From: Temperatibacter marinus
GTDB lineage: Bacteria; Pseudomonadota; Alphaproteobacteria; Sphingomonadales; Kordiimonadaceae
DNA: 64,000 bases
Direction of reading: 5' to 3'
Assembly (NCBI RefSeq): GCF_031598375.1
Contig: NZ_CP123872.1
Location: 2,228,501 to 2,292,500, forward strand
Of this stretch, positions 28,438 through 35,213 are shown in pieces (position 1 is the stretch's first letter; each line of letters begins with the position of its first letter). The notes under the pieces were generated by a model. That model did no database searches, was not told where the DNA came from, and saw nothing but the letters and a program-made list of their open reading frames with translations. The translations under genes were made by a program, and so were the position numbers.

Positions 28438-29076
28438 ATGAAAAACGCAGATTTTGCTGGATTGTTGTGTTCACGTTTATGCCACGACCTTGTTAGTCCT
28501 GTTGGGGCAATGAGTAATGGCGTTGAATTGTTGCACGATAAAGGCAATGCGGACATGCAAGAGCAGATCGTAGATCTTCTTGAAGATTCTGTTGTTCAGA
28601 CAACAAATAAGCTGAAATTTTTTCGGCTTGCTTTTGGTCTTGGTGGTGGATTTGGAGCGGTGATTAATCTTGAAGAGGCGAAGCTGGCTCTTGCTTCTTT
28701 GTTCGATAAATCAAAAGTCACCATTGCTTGGTCTTCTGATGTGGCGGCTGCAGATAAAAACCTTATGAAAATCCTTTTGAATTTAGCACTGGTTGCCGGA
28801 GAATGTGTTATCGGTGAGGGGATTTTATCAATTTCACTTGAAGGATTAGAAAGTGACGCTGAGGAGTTAATCATTATTAAAGCCTCTGGCGCTCGTTTAA
28901 TCATTCATGAAAGTGTCGCTTCAGCTGTAGAGAAATCACTAAGTGATGTGGATGCGGATCCAAAATCAATTCCTGTTTGCCTGGCAAAATCGTTAAGTCT
29001 TGAGAATGGTTTGGGAATTCGATTGGATCGTGGAAATGAGACGGAAATGACCTTTATAGTTTCAAAACAAGGATAA
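28438..29076 (+). CDS. chpT: Histidine phosphotransferase ChpT
   Basis: A 212-residue protein. ADFAGLLCSRLCHDLVSPVGAMSNGVELL contains the phosphotransfer histidine in a DHp-like helix; the C-terminal part resembles a degenerate ATPase domain without nucleotide-binding motifs. In alphaproteobacteria ChpT takes phosphate from the hybrid kinase CckA and passes it to CtrA and CpdR, controlling the cell cycle and motility. Here it sits directly before a chemotaxis operon (115-base gap), while cckA and ctrA are not in the window. A GAGG site precedes the ATG. Confidence 0.88.
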   Translation: MKNADFAGLLCSRLCHDLVSPVGAMSNGVELLHDKGNADMQEQIVDLLEDSVVQTTNKLKFFRLAFGLGGGFGAVINLEEAKLALASLFDKSKVTIAWSSDVAAADKNLMKILLNLALVAGECVIGEGILSISLEGLESDAEELIIIKASGARLIIHESVASAVEKSLSDVDADPKSIPVCLAKSLSLENGLGIRLDRGNETEMTFIVSKQG

Positions 29077-29090
29077 TTTTGAGTGGAGAC

Positions 29091-29131
29091 CACTTTAGGC
29101 TTTACAGTGGATTTTATTTGAACCTAAAGTG
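29091..29131 (+). repeat. 9-base inverted repeat between chpT and cheA
   Basis: CACTTTAGG (29091-29099) and CCTAAAGTG (29123-29131) are perfect complements separated by 23 bases. No T-run follows, so it is not a standard terminator; it may be an operator pair or an RNA hairpin in the cheA leader. Confidence 0.45.
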
Positions 29132-29191
29132 ACACCAACTATTTGGTTTATGATGGCAATTATAGATGACAATGAGTAACGGGGAATAAAT

Positions 29192-32100
29192 ATGGATGAC
29201 CTCTTAAATGAATTCTTAACGGAAACATCAGAAGCGATTGATGTTGTTGATGTTGAGCTTGTCAAATTAGAGCAAGACCCGAACAACAAAGAAGTTTTGG
29301 ATAATATATTCAGACTAGTTCATACAATTAAGGGGACCTGTGGTTTCCTAGGTTTGCCAAGACTTGAATCTGTTGCGCATGCTTCAGAGAATGTTCTTGG
29401 AAAATTCCGCGATGGTGAGCTTGAGGTTACCGAGCATGCTGTGACTGTTATTCTAGAAAGCTTAGACAGAATTAAAGACATTCTTGCAGGCCTTGAAGAA
29501 ACAGAAGAAGAGCCGCAAGGCGATGACAATGATCTCATTGATCGCTTAGATGCTATTGCTGAAGGCAGTTTAGCATCAGAACCAGAGGCTGATGTCATCG
29601 AGGCTGATATTGTCGACCAAGGGTTAGGTCGTCCTCTAAAAGCTGGCGAAGTTACTCTTGAAGAACTAGAGGCTGCTTTTGCTTCCGCTCCAGGCCCTGA
29701 AGCTGGTGGTGCTGATGATAGTGCTGGCGACGAAATGGATATGGAAGCTGAAATGGCAGCTGCTATGGAAGAAGAACAGGCTGCGGATATCGTAGAAGCA
29801 AATACGTCTGCGTCTGAACCTCTTTATGATCGGGTTGGCGGTGAAGATGCAATTGCAGTGATGGCACATTTAATGTCCTCGCGGTTGCCGAATGATCCTA
29901 AGCTTTCTAAATTCTTTAAAGATTCTACCGTCGATCAGCGAAAAGGTCGTCTGTCCGGTATCATGACAGCTCTCTTTAGGGACGATCTAGATTCTGCGGA
30001 TAATGTTGCGCGTTTAATGATAACCATGCCTGGTTTCGATGATAAATGTTTTGATGCATTGCTCGTATTCATGAAATCAGTGATGACAGAGTGTCAGGTT
30101 GAGGCGGACACCCGCGATGAAGCGATCATGAGTTTTGAGCTTGTCAGAGAGGCTGTGGTCTCTTCTTCGAAAGCGAAAGCAGAGGCCGCGACAGCTAAAA
30201 CCTCTGGAGATACAAAGCGGACCTCACAGTCTATTCGTGTCAGTGTCGATTTGCTTGAAGATTTGATGAATATGGTGTCCGAACTTGTACTGACGCGGAA
30301 CCAATTGCTTCAAATCTCTAGAGATATGGATAATTCTGAGCTAGGGGTGCCGCTTCAGCGTCTGAGTCAGTGTACAACTGAACTTCAAGAAGGTGTGATG
30401 AAGACACGCATGCAGCCGATTGGTAATGCATGGGCGAAATTGCCTCGTATTGTTCGTGATTTGACCGTTGAACTTGATAAGAAAATTGAACTTGAGATGC
30501 GGGGTGCTGAAACCGAGCTGGATCGTCAAGTTCTTGAGCTTATTAAAGATCCTTTGACACATATGGTCAGAAATTCAGCAGACCACGGTGTGGAAATGCC
30601 AGCAGAGCGTCTTGCACTAGGCAAGCCTGAGACCGGCACGATTATTTTAGACGCCTACCATGAAGGCGGTCACATTATTGTGGAAATTAGAGATGATGGG
30701 CGCGGCATTCCAGTGGAGAAGCTGAAAGGCAAGATTCTTGAAAAAGAGTTGGCGACTGAAAGCGAACTCTCTGAGATGTCTGATAACCAAATTCAAAAGT
30801 TTATCTTCCATCCTGGTTTTTCTACAGCAGAGAAAGTCACATCAGTTTCAGGCCGAGGCGTTGGCATGGATGTTGTGCGCTCAAATATTGAAAAAATTGG
30901 TGGCACCATTGATATGGTTTCTATCGAAGGGAAAGGCTCTACATTTGAAATTAAGATTCCGCTGACACTTGCTATTGTTTCTGCCTTGATCGTCAAAGCA
31001 GATGGCGAGAGATTTGCTATTCCTCAGATTAGTGTCCTGGAACTTGTTAGAGCGTCATCTGATTCAGAATATCGTATTGAGAAGATTAAAGATGCCCCTG
31101 TCTTGAGGCTGCGCAATCGGTTGCTACCACTCGTTTATCTGAATGAGATTCTAGACTTCTCAACGCGCGAAGAACTGGAAGCCGATGAAGACAAGGATGA
31201 TTTCATCATTGTGGCACAGGTTGGGGCCTATACCTTTGGTATTGTGGTTGATCAGGTCTTTGATACTGAAGAAATCGTCGTTAAACCTGTGGCGCCAATC
31301 TTGAAGGATATCCCTATCTATTCTGGAAATACAATCCTTGGTGACGGTAGCGTGATTATGATTTTGGATCCAAATGGTATTGCGGCCCGCTCGAATGCAG
31401 GTGCCTCTGATCAAGTTGAAGACAAAGTTGAGGAAGATGTGGTTCACAAAGCAAGTTCTGACGAAAATGAGAGTATGCTGGTGTTCAGGGCAGGTTCTGA
31501 GAATAATAAGGCTGTACAGCTCTCCTTGATTGCGCGACTTGAGGATATAGCAATTGATGAAATTGAAATGTCTAATGGCCGGCATGTGGTTCAGTACCGA
31601 GGAGCCTTGATGCCGATCATTAAAGCTGATCCGACGATGGAATTCGTCAGTGAAGGCCGACAGCCTGTTCTTGTGTTCACAGACAGAGAATATACGATGG
31701 GCCTCGCTGTAGATCAGATCATGGATATCGTCGATGACAAGCTTGATATTAAACTGGCGTCTGACAATGAAAGTGTTGTTGGTTCTGCTGTTGTAGATGG
31801 CAATACTACAGAAATTATCAATGTGGCATACTTCCTAGCCCAAGCCTTCTCTGATTGGCTTAAGAGTAGGGACACGGAAGAGGATGTTGCCCCAGCAAAA
31901 GATGCGCATGTTCTCTTAATTGATGACAGTGATTTCTTCCGGAGTATGGTGCGCCCCGTCTTGACAGTTGCTGGCTATAAAGTAACAGCTGTGAACGGAG
32001 CTCAAAAGGCTTTGGATCTTCGAGAAGATGGAATCATGTTCGATCTTATTGTTTCTGATATTGAAATGCCTGATATGACAGGCTTTGAATTTGCAGAAGC

Positions 32101-32281
32101 TATTAAATCTTCGGGAATTTGGCAGCATACACCTCTTATAGCGCTTTCGAGCTTGGCAAGTGATAAGGATATTAATCACGGAATTGAAGTCGGTTTTGAT
32201 GATTATGTCGCTAAATTTGATCAAGAAACACTGCTGCGCAGCTTAGCTCAGCAGCTTAAACTTCAAGGAGATGCAGCATGA
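29192..32281 (+). CDS. cheA: Hybrid chemotaxis kinase CheA with internal globin-like domain and C-terminal receiver
   Basis: A 1029-residue kinase, much longer than E. coli CheA (654). Domains in order: HPt (1-105; phosphoacceptor H44 in RLVHTIKGTCGFLG), acidic linker (106-208), truncated-haemoglobin-like domain (~209-325; PLYDRVGGEDAI ... LSKFF ... GFDDKCFDALLVFM), dimerisation domain (343-400), ATPase (450-595; N box MVRNSADHG, DDGRGIP, FHPGFSTA, GRGVGMDVV), CheW domain 1 (595-735), CheW-like domain 2 (760-895), receiver (905-1023; D911, D912, phospho-D956, K1008). It phosphorylates CheY/CheB and perhaps its own receiver as a phosphate sink. cheW overlaps its end by four bases. The CheY/CheB-binding P2 domain is not apparent; the globin-like domain occupies that place. 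Confidence 0.93.
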   Translation: MDDLLNEFLTETSEAIDVVDVELVKLEQDPNNKEVLDNIFRLVHTIKGTCGFLGLPRLESVAHASENVLGKFRDGELEVTEHAVTVILESLDRIKDILAGLEETEEEPQGDDNDLIDRLDAIAEGSLASEPEADVIEADIVDQGLGRPLKAGEVTLEELEAAFASAPGPEAGGADDSAGDEMDMEAEMAAAMEEEQAADIVEANTSASEPLYDRVGGEDAIAVMAHLMSSRLPNDPKLSKFFKDSTVDQRKGRLSGIMTALFRDDLDSADNVARLMITMPGFDDKCFDALLVFMKSVMTECQVEADTRDEAIMSFELVREAVVSSSKAKAEAATAKTSGDTKRTSQSIRVSVDLLEDLMNMVSELVLTRNQLLQISRDMDNSELGVPLQRLSQCTTELQEGVMKTRMQPIGNAWAKLPRIVRDLTVELDKKIELEMRGAETELDRQVLELIKDPLTHMVRNSADHGVEMPAERLALGKPETGTIILDAYHEGGHIIVEIRDDGRGIPVEKLKGKILEKELATESELSEMSDNQIQKFIFHPGFSTAEKVTSVSGRGVGMDVVRSNIEKIGGTIDMVSIEGKGSTFEIKIPLTLAIVSALIVKADGERFAIPQISVLELVRASSDSEYRIEKIKDAPVLRLRNRLLPLVYLNEILDFSTREELEADEDKDDFIIVAQVGAYTFGIVVDQVFDTEEIVVKPVAPILKDIPIYSGNTILGDGSVIMILDPNGIAARSNAGASDQVEDKVEEDVVHKASSDENESMLVFRAGSENNKAVQLSLIARLEDIAIDEIEMSNGRHVVQYRGALMPIIKADPTMEFVSEGRQPVLVFTDREYTMGLAVDQIMDIVDDKLDIKLASDNESVVGSAVVDGNTTEIINVAYFLAQAFSDWLKSRDTEEDVAPAKDAHVLLIDDSDFFRSMVRPVLTVAGYKVTAVNGAQKALDLREDGIMFDLIVSDIEMPDMTGFEFAEAIKSSGIWQHTPLIALSSLASDKDINHGIEVGFDDYVAKFDQETLLRSLAQQLKLQGDAA

Positions 32282-32769
32282 ATGATCTCGTCGTAAGAAA
32301 TGATCTCAGCGTTGTCGCCAGTGGATCAGGCAGTCAAGATTATGTAACTGTAAATCTTGCAGGGCAATTACTTGGCATTCCAGTATTGTCAGTGCATGAT
32401 GTCCTTAATCAACAGCGGATTACAGCCATTCCTTTATCTCCAGAGTGGGTTGCAGGTGTTTTAAACCTTCGTGGGCGTATTGTGACTGCAATTGACCTGA
32501 GAGTGCGAATGGATTTGCCGCCAAGAGAAGAAGGTCAAAAATCTATGAGTGTTGTGGTCGAACATAATGATGAGCCTTATAGTTTACAAATTGATTCAGT
32601 AGGGGAAGTTTTGTCTCTTTCAGACGAGCTTTTTGAGAGGAACCCTATTACGCTGGATCCTAAGTGGCGCGATGTCAGTAAAGGCATCTACCGTCTGGAA
32701 AATGAGCTGATGGCGGTTTTGGATGTAGAAAAACTTCTAGATCTAGAGTCATCGTCAAAAGCAGCCTAA
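32278..32769 (+). CDS. cheW: Chemotaxis coupling protein CheW
   Basis: A 163-residue CheW with two beta-barrel subdomains; ILGIPVLSVHDVL-like entry, WVAGVLNLRGRIVTAIDLRVRMDL (the conserved NLRG segment) and EPYSLQIDSVGEVLSL are typical. It links receptors to CheA. The start overlaps the cheA stop (ATGA), indicating coupled translation. Note that no methyl-accepting receptor gene with an output domain is present in the window. Confidence 0.93.
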   Translation: MNDLVVRNDLSVVASGSGSQDYVTVNLAGQLLGIPVLSVHDVLNQQRITAIPLSPEWVAGVLNLRGRIVTAIDLRVRMDLPPREEGQKSMSVVVEHNDEPYSLQIDSVGEVLSLSDELFERNPITLDPKWRDVSKGIYRLENELMAVLDVEKLLDLESSSKAA

Positions 32770-32787
32770 ACGATCGGGGAGGAACTG

Positions 32788-33156
32788 ATGAAAAGCTGTT
32801 TAGTAGTGGATGACTCTAAAGTTATTCGAAAAGTTGCAAGGCGAATTCTTGAAGAATTGAACTTTGCAGTAGAAGAGGCTGTTGATGGTAGAGATGCCCT
32901 AGATAAGTCTGTTGCCAATACACCAGATGCAGTTTTGCTTGACTGGAATATGCCTATTATGGATGGTCTTGAATATTTGACAGCTTTGAGAGCAAGTTCT
33001 GATATTCAAACTCAGCCGATTGTTGTATTTTGTACAACAGAAAATGATATGTCCCATATCCGTCGTGCCATCGAAGCTGGTGCTAATGAATATATAATGA
33101 AACCTTTTGACCGTGAGATTATTGAAGCGAAATTTTCTCAAGTTGGTCTACTGTAA
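32788..33156 (+). CDS. cheY: Chemotaxis response regulator CheY
   Basis: A 122-residue single receiver domain: D8/D9 in VVDDS, phosphoacceptor D52 in LLDWNMPIMDG, T83/T84 in FCTTEND, K105 in YIMKPFDRE. It carries the signal from CheA to the flagellar switch. It lies 18 bases after cheW with a GGGGAGGA ribosome site. Confidence 0.92.
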   Translation: MKSCLVVDDSKVIRKVARRILEELNFAVEEAVDGRDALDKSVANTPDAVLLDWNMPIMDGLEYLTALRASSDIQTQPIVVFCTTENDMSHIRRAIEAGANEYIMKPFDREIIEAKFSQVGLL

Positions 33157-33168
33157 GAGTATTAAAAC

Positions 33169-34407
33169 GTGATTTCTCACCGATTATCATCGCAAACTAC
33201 AGCACCCGCTGGCGACACCGTTAAAGTAATGGTCGTCGACGATAGTGCAATAATTCGTGGATTTATTTGTCGTTATTTATCAGAAGATTCTTCGATTGAA
33301 GTCGTCACAACAGCCAATAATGGTGAAGTGGCTGTGCGTATGTTGAAGGATAATCCTCAGATTGAGGTTGTTTTACTTGATATTGAAATGCCGGTAATGG
33401 ATGGTCTAACTGCCTTACCTAAAATGATTGAACTGAGGCCTGATTTACAGGTTATTATGGCTTCTACCCTTACAAAACGGAATGCCGAAGTCAGTTTGAG
33501 AGCGATGCAGCACGGTGCTGTGGATTATGTGCCTAAACCTGAAACAGCGCGTTCCGTAAATGCTTCTATTGATTTCCGTAGGGAAATTGTTGAGAAGGTG
33601 AAAGCTTGGGCAAATCGCAGTCGAAAGAAAAAAGGTGTTCCTGAAGTTAAGGATAGCTCGACAAAACCTGCTGCGACTAATTTTGCTCGACCGACAGCTC
33701 GTCCTACTGGCTTTGCTGCGCCATCCCGTCCTGCAGTTAAGCCCGCAGTTGTCTCCTCACGTCAAACAACTGAGGTGAAATCGACCTCAAGCGCTTCTGC
33801 AATACAATTGCGTAAGGCGGCACGGACAAAACCTCAAATTTTGGCAATTGGGTCTTCCACTGGCGGCCCCCAAGCGTTGATGAAGTTTTTTAAAGGGTTC
33901 AAAAAGAAACCAAGTGTTCCCATTGTCATTACACAGCATATGCCGGCTACTTTTACTGCTATTTTGGCAACGCATATTGGAGAGGCTACAGGCTGGCCTT
34001 CTGCTGAAGCAAAAGAGGGTGACACTTTAATGCCGGGACATGTCTATGTGGCTCCTGGTGATTGGCACATGCAATTTGTTAGAGGTGATGGCAAAGTTAA
34101 AGTAACTCTTAATCAGGGACCGCAAGAAAATTTCTGCCGACCTGCTGTTGATCCTATGTATCGCAGTTTGATTGAGATTTATGGAGATCGTATCCTTGGC
34201 GTTATACTGACAGGTATGGGGCATGATGGTTTAAAAGGGTCTCGAGATATCGTTAAAAATGGGGGGACAGTATTTGCTCAAGATGAAGCATCTAGTGTCG
34301 TTTGGGGAATGCCTGGCGCTGTATCTACAGCAGGGTTATGCTCTAAAGTAACACCCATTGATGAGTTAGGTGAACAAGCTGAGAAACAGCTCGATGGAGG
34401 CTATTAA
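33169..34407 (+). CDS. cheB: Chemotaxis protein-glutamate methylesterase CheB
   Basis: A 412-residue protein: receiver domain (~18-135; phospho-D71 in LLDIEMPVMDG), an unusually long Lys/Pro/Ser/Thr-rich linker (~145-220) and the methylesterase/deamidase domain with S230 (IGSSTGGPQA), H257 (TQHMP) and D353 (GMGHDG). The GTG at 33169 is the only reasonable start upstream of the receiver; the ribosome site is weak. It removes methyl groups from receptors during adaptation. It overlaps cheR by one base (TAATG). Confidence 0.92.
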   Translation: MISHRLSSQTTAPAGDTVKVMVVDDSAIIRGFICRYLSEDSSIEVVTTANNGEVAVRMLKDNPQIEVVLLDIEMPVMDGLTALPKMIELRPDLQVIMASTLTKRNAEVSLRAMQHGAVDYVPKPETARSVNASIDFRREIVEKVKAWANRSRKKKGVPEVKDSSTKPAATNFARPTARPTGFAAPSRPAVKPAVVSSRQTTEVKSTSSASAIQLRKAARTKPQILAIGSSTGGPQALMKFFKGFKKKPSVPIVITQHMPATFTAILATHIGEATGWPSAEAKEGDTLMPGHVYVAPGDWHMQFVRGDGKVKVTLNQGPQENFCRPAVDPMYRSLIEIYGDRILGVILTGMGHDGLKGSRDIVKNGGTVFAQDEASSVVWGMPGAVSTAGLCSKVTPIDELGEQAEKQLDGGY

Positions 34408-35213
34408 TGCGCCCAAATGATTTTGAATTTTTAGCAAAATTTCTAAAAGAGCGTTCAGGGTTAATGCTTACACAGGATAAAGTGTATCTATTGGAAAGTC
34501 GGTTGACTCCAATTGCTAGAAAGTATGGTCATGATACTTTAGATGCCTTTATCGCAAGCTTTAAAATGTCTCGTGACGAAGCTCTGAACGTTGAAGTGAC
34601 AGAGGCGATGACCACAAACGAGTCCTTCTTTTTCCGTGACAGTACACCATTTGATCTTTTTAAAAATCAGGTTTTGCCAGTCATCGAAAAAAACAGACCG
34701 ACAAAGCGCTTGAGGATATGGTGTGCAGCAGCTTCAACAGGTCAGGAGCCTTATTCACTGGCAATGATCTTAAAAGAACAGTGGCATAAGTGGAAAGATT
34801 GGAAAATTGAAATTGTTGGTACTGACATTTGTACAAAAGTGCTCAGCAAAGCCAAGCAAGGACATTATAGTCAATTTGAAGTTCAGCGTGGTCTGCCAAT
34901 CCAAATGCTCATTAAGTATTTTGAGCAAGACGGTGACGTGTGGAAACTAAACGATGAAATCCGTAATATGGTCTCTTATCGTCCCTTTAATCTGTTAAGT
35001 AGTTTCACGACTTTAGGTAACTTTGACGTAATCTACTGCCGGAATGTTTTGATTTATTTTGATCAAGAAACTAAGGGCGATGTTTTAGATCGAATGCGTC
35101 GACACGTAGCTGATGATGGAACATTATTTTTAGGTGCGGCAGAAACAGTGCTTGGAATTACTGATAAATTTCAACCTGTTAAGGGTCAACGGGGCATGTA
35201 TACACCAAGCTAG
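34407..35213 (+). CDS. cheR: Chemotaxis receptor methyltransferase CheR
   Basis: A 268-residue S-adenosylmethionine-dependent methyltransferase: N-terminal helical domain with EVTEAMTTNESFFFRDSTPF, SAM motif IWCAAASTGQEPYSLAMIL, GTDICTKVLSKAKQGHYS, and FDVIYCRNVLIYFDQETK. It methylates receptor glutamates opposing CheB. Last gene of cheAWYBR; a terminator follows. Confidence 0.94.
   Translation: MRPNDFEFLAKFLKERSGLMLTQDKVYLLESRLTPIARKYGHDTLDAFIASFKMSRDEALNVEVTEAMTTNESFFFRDSTPFDLFKNQVLPVIEKNRPTKRLRIWCAAASTGQEPYSLAMILKEQWHKWKDWKIEIVGTDICTKVLSKAKQGHYSQFEVQRGLPIQMLIKYFEQDGDVWKLNDEIRNMVSYRPFNLLSSFTTLGNFDVIYCRNVLIYFDQETKGDVLDRMRRHVADDGTLFLGAAETVLGITDKFQPVKGQRGMYTPS

Follow-up and report, generated by a model that had tools for sequence, protein, structure and literature searches.

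The window (the whole stretch of 64,000 nucleotides analysed here) carries a chemotaxis cluster in which a cheA gene lies between a histidine phosphotransferase-like gene and genes for CheW, a CheY-like response regulator, CheB and a CheR-like methyltransferase (Table 1). No receptor gene adjoins the cheA cluster among the neighbours read (28438-35213). Elsewhere in the genome, a second che cluster encodes two receptor-like proteins and a CheW along with a CheA of more classical type; PF09078 (P2) matches the genome's other CheA below threshold. In Iodidimonas sp. Q-1, a similar ORF (L036:4462-5151, identified by reading only) precedes cheA, as the PF10090 gene does in the window.

Table 1. 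Genes of the chemotaxis cluster and features of the CheA protein, in window coordinates.
Feature	Position	Strand	Description and basis
Histidine phosphotransferase-like gene (PF10090)	28438..29076	+	Directly upstream of cheA; Pfam
cheA ORF	29192..32281	+	1029 aa, F5-like order P1, P3, P4, CheW, CheW, REC, plus globin domain
P1 / HPt	29198..29476	+	aa 3-95, Pfam Hpt; phospho-acceptor motif RLVHTIKGTCGFLGL intact
Linker short motif GRPLKAGEVTLEELEAAFASAPGP	29627..29698	+	aa 146-169, inside disordered linker; common to many F5 CheAs
Group I truncated-globin domain	29816..30196	+	aa 209-335; Pfam, phmmer, AF2, structure comparison, hhalign
His226, helix B	29867..29869	+	27/27 aligned family members; candidate functional residue
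Ala273/Arg274	30008..30013	+	Occupy expected site of proximal haem His (F8)
P3 dimerisation domain (H-kinase_dim)	30224..30406	+	aa 345-405, Pfam
P4 HATPase (HATPase_c)	30548..30967	+	aa 453-592, Pfam
CheW-like domain 1 (P5)	30983..31387	+	Pfam
CheW-like domain 2	31475..31837	+	Pfam
Receiver (REC), C-terminal	31910..32239	+	aa 907-1016, Pfam
CheW gene	32278..32769	+	Downstream of cheA; Pfam
CheY-like response regulator	32788..33156	+	Pfam
CheB gene	33169..34407	+	Pfam
CheR-like methyltransferase	34407..35213	+	Identified from its translation

The window CheA was assigned to the F5 class by its domain features, a duplicated CheW domain and a C-terminal REC domain (Pfam), while the phylogenetic comparison covered kinase-core relatives alone. 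In Berry 2023 (PMC10782961), two CheW domains together with REC are given as diagnostic for this class. By reading, the motifs RLVHTIKG (phosphoacceptor), LIKDPLTHMVRNSADHG and GRGVGMDVV (kinase) are all intact. An AlphaFold2 (AF2) model of aa 1-410 comprises P1, disordered segments at 128-139 and 168-204, a globin at 211-335 (pLDDT ~90-97), further disorder at 336-348, and P3. Since disordered linkers lie on either side of it in this model, the globin is predicted to be an independent module on flexible tethers. The P1-P3 linker also holds a motif, R-x-L-K/x-PGEVSLDELEAAFxxAPGP, which occurs in many F5 CheAs (window 29627-29698; L091-L119), in some of them in two copies. A single short helix is predicted there in the window protein (aa 156-165, AF2), and the motif may possibly serve for docking.

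The first-pass annotation had read residues ~209-325, located between the HPt and dimerisation domains, as a group I truncated globin, and had suggested structure prediction with fold comparison and a PF01152 search as checks. The location agrees with the Pfam domains and with the AF2 model of aa 1-410, and the fold is borne out, reaching slightly further than proposed, to about aa 335 (nt 30196). Scanned alone, segment 29801-30181 passes the PF01152 cut-off (22.8 bits, E 1.1e-4, cut-off 21). A routine Pfam scan would miss the domain because its score within the full-length CheA is 15.8 bits, under that cut-off, so that the window copy is marginal; as a PF01152 search of the genome skips it, plain Pfam surveys under-count such domains. 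phmmer against PDB sequences aligned the domain end to end with Chlamydomonas reinhardtii THB1 (E 4.8e-6, residues 2-120), and the remaining matches below about E 1 were nearly all truncated haemoglobins. Comparison by hhalign of a 27-member family profile with eight free alphaproteobacterial truncated haemoglobins gave a probability of 98.3% (E 2.6e-14). AlphaFold2 run on the family alignment predicted a globin fold (pLDDT 93.2, pTM 0.85), for which the leading Foldseek ranks were almost all truncated haemoglobins and group I members came top; the best match by VIA-align was the group I protein 1dly (Z 14.3, rmsd 2.4 over 114 residues), and the RsbR globin 2bnl was also among the structural matches (Z 9.3).

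Other identities do not fit the domain. Chance resemblance to globins is ruled out by phmmer, VIA-align and hhalign; an ordinary P2 domain by the different fold and by the lack of any match of the P2 models PF07194 and PF09078 to the window CheA at E<=1; and a globin-coupled sensor by the PF11563 (protoglobin type) score in the window CheA, which is under its cut-off (18.1 against 25) and does less well than PF01152, by the internal position, and by the absent F8 histidine. Residues 209-335 of the window CheA form a group I truncated-globin domain, as sequence comparison and the predicted structure agree in indicating.

This CheA occurs in all 30 genomes of the window's family (f1), which span nine genera, and a single-protein search of genome contigs added Iodidimonas sp. 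Q-1 as the sole further relative. A complete globin could be aligned from 28 family genomes and from Iodidimonas sp. Q-1; in the other two family genomes it is split over two contigs in one and cut by a contig end in the other, so that it is present in every family genome where checking was possible. Among resolvable pairs the globin has a dN/dS of 0.04-0.07, and these values, together with the 30 orthologues, rule out a pseudogene or sequencing error. Of 28 relatives, 27 have a globin of the same length, and both flanking linkers vary in length in all 28. The globin is kept under purifying selection despite the loss of its haem pocket. Its mean identity to the window sequence is 53%, against 94% for P1 and 86-90% for P3-P4, which makes it the fastest-evolving folded part of the protein and counts against a regulatory reading. 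The same rapid divergence, along with the decayed haem pocket, would suit a vestigial spacer retained for its fold alone; purifying selection, the fixed length and the retention of the domain throughout the checkable family genomes make this explanation improbable.

The haem pocket itself is altered at several sites. The first-pass annotation had noted Ala/Arg at the position of the proximal haem histidine and doubted haem binding on that ground; the site is indeed occupied by Ala273/Arg274, and the loss of the proximal ligand extends across the family members compared, in which F8 is Ala, Gly or Met and in none His. Position B10, Tyr in group I proteins, is Ser, Ala or Gly in 27/27 family members. 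The EF segment is shortened relative to the GGPxxY of haem-competent group I truncated haemoglobins. CD1 Phe is retained. From the alignment, the window-family globin is read as retaining no haem-ligating residue. Among 33 columns conserved at >=90% in the family globin, 13 are charged or His, in our judgement an excess over what packing needs, and His226, Lys251, Glu316 and Arg319 are invariant in 27/27 globins. The invariance of His226 could suggest that haem or another tetrapyrrole is still bound through a non-canonical ligand such as this residue, a reading we regard as very improbable given that there is no His at or beside F8, that Tyr B10 is gone and the EF segment shortened, and that the His226 site is usually Asp/Glu in other truncated haemoglobins.

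A profile search of Alphaproteobacteria, followed by reading of the loci, showed that 20 of the sampled genomes, belonging to 13 family groups (f1, f11, f38, f60, f82, f88, f92, f96, f103, f105, f114, f124 and f139), encode CheAs whose P1-P3 linker contains a globin. A CheA of f175 has a globin in the same domain order, bringing the total to 14 alphaproteobacterial families; by way of comparison, a match to the kinase core of this CheA at E<=1e-60 occurs in 160 of the 372 genomes sampled. The survey for CheAs with the same insertion that the first-pass annotation had advised has thus turned up a wide set, in which most same-slot relatives score 34-69 bits per domain with PF01152 (maximum 68.6; none for L084). 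Sequence divergence is high in the f11 and f139 copies, which were assigned on weaker scores (E 4.8e-5 and 1.6e-11, respectively). The proximal His is kept in seven of the 14 families (f60, f82, f92, f96, f103, f114 and f124), with Tyr B10 in all copies except one. In the other seven, F8 is replaced by Phe (f88, f105, f139 and f175), by Leu (f11) or by Ala/Gly/Met (window family), or is deleted (f38). Paralogues can also differ in haem status, since a second CheA of an f124 genome (L131:5554-8460, G256) has Leu at F8 and that genome's other CheA keeps haem ligands.

Further arrangements of truncated globins were seen in the course of this survey. Two CheAs (L076:4353-7952 and L127:2-2620) carry a second globin in addition to that of the P1-P3 linker; it lies inside CheW domain 1 and keeps its proximal His. 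One chemoreceptor (L079:4464-7328, G316) consists of an N-terminal truncated haemoglobin with proximal His and Tyr B10 kept, a PAS domain and an MCP signalling domain, and a CheW protein (L083:5179-6384, G408) bears a C-terminal truncated globin that scores 41 bits with PF01152 and has Ser at the position aligned with F8. Outside the Alphaproteobacteria, family f188 has recurrent pairs of truncated-haemoglobin genes ~500 bases apart.

The position of the domain had suggested a replacement for P2, a proposal that fails on comparison with other Alphaproteobacteria: in the sampled non-globin F5-type CheAs, P1 and P3 are joined by a disordered stretch rich in Ala, Pro and Glu, with no P2, and the globin has therefore been added rather than exchanged for P2. 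A P2-like function is a separate matter and forms the main rival explanation, according to which the globin is a docking domain that holds CheY or CheB near P1 and senses nothing. The domain is placed and tethered as P2 is (AF2 aa 1-410), its conserved charged residues offer surface candidates, the window family has no haem ligands, and deletion of P2 in Escherichia coli slows phosphotransfer, according to Berry 2023 (PMC10782961). Nevertheless, the sampled non-globin F5 CheAs do without both P2 and globin, and docking alone leaves the haem-ligated versions in the same slot unexplained; on balance we consider this explanation unlikely.

The seven families that keep the proximal His in the same slot make an input role more plausible for the ancestor. 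On the CheA kinase-core tree, globin presence requires eight gain/loss changes, and haem status changes at least five times among globin carriers; the globin tree, built on 128 columns, is too weakly resolved to decide between one origin and several, and a single clade of all CheA globins is not rejected there (AU p 0.36). Given this p value and the eight changes, a haem-binding CheA is not a necessary ancestor of the window domain. We infer that the domain may have passed through one.

The reading we favour, and hold to be reasonably probable by analogy with RsbR, is that the domain would once have been a haem-based, gas-sensing input and would now act without haem, as a regulatory or interaction module on tethers. 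Its origin would lie in the insertion of a group I truncated haemoglobin into the flexible linker joining P1 and P3 in an F5-class CheA that had no P2. In relatives with haem ligands it would probably be an input domain for gas (O2/NO), whose binding may alter the access of P1 to the kinase or to response regulators. In the window lineage (family f1 and Iodidimonas sp. Q-1), the haem pocket would have gone with the fold retained, and the haem-free module would bind either a ligand other than haem or a partner, which could be a response regulator or an array or polar protein, such binding presumably adjusting P1 phosphotransfer. Both the present regulatory or interaction role and the ancestral gas sensing are what we infer from these comparisons. 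A broader version is put forward tentatively: CheA could sense gas via a built-in truncated haemoglobin in several lineages, as a receptor-independent input to the array, and the slot could have been converted repeatedly to a haem-free sensor or interaction module in lineages like that of the window. As the genome encodes at least 14 chemoreceptors, receptor-free sensing by the window CheA stays a proposal.

A survey of 13,673 CheAs published in 2023 (PMC10782961) represents the standard view of CheA as a protein without a sensor domain and lists P2, REC and CheC/CheX as auxiliary domains; its main text makes no mention of globins. A literature search for CheA combined with a truncated haemoglobin or globin domain, made largely outside subscription papers, did not find the architecture. 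The truncated globin and the F5 CheA were already known; what appears to be new is the presence of P1-P3 globins in 14 alphaproteobacterial families, in both haem-competent and haem-free forms. This wider set makes the observation more interesting than first stated. With the proximal His kept in half of the families and lost in the other half, direct ligand input into a chemotaxis kinase becomes testable, and the 'sensorless' chemotaxis kinase may carry its own input domain in these lineages. Alongside RsbR, the CheA globins would also form the second natural series in which globins with and without haem occupy a single signalling slot.

Compared with known systems, the window domain shares its fold, helix pattern, GG motif and CD1 Phe with group I truncated haemoglobins (TrHb1/HbN, PF01152), its best PDB matches being THB1, the Chlamydomonas eugametos haemoglobin and HbN, but differs from them in being embedded in a kinase and in having lost the proximal His, Tyr B10 and the haem-side EF segment. 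The protein has every core domain of F5-class CheAs in the same order, whereas the sampled non-globin members have a disordered linker at the globin site. Like the P2/CheY-binding domain of classical CheA, the globin lies between P1 and P3 on flexible linkers; its fold is different, and P2 models are without a match in the window CheA. Globin-coupled MCPs and histidine kinases are known and belong to the sensor-globin family. With HemAT and the globin-coupled histidine kinases, the window CheA shares a globin joined to a chemotaxis or kinase output, but theirs is an N-terminal, haem-binding protoglobin or sensor globin and that of the window an internal truncated globin.

The closest functional parallel is the stressosome protein RsbR (2bnl), an N-terminal haem-free globin in a signalling assembly whose haem-bearing homologues share the slot: the globin of Vibrio RsbR carries haem and senses O2, and its Bacillus counterpart at the same position is haem-free (PMC4976288). 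As a globin fold free of haem ligands inside a signalling protein, the window domain falls among non-haem regulatory globins. The globin of RsbR is a 3/3 sensor globin and belongs to a STAS protein, whereas that of the window CheA is a 2/2 truncated globin in a histidine kinase; the sequence families differ, and the RsbR-like label describes solely how the window globin may work.
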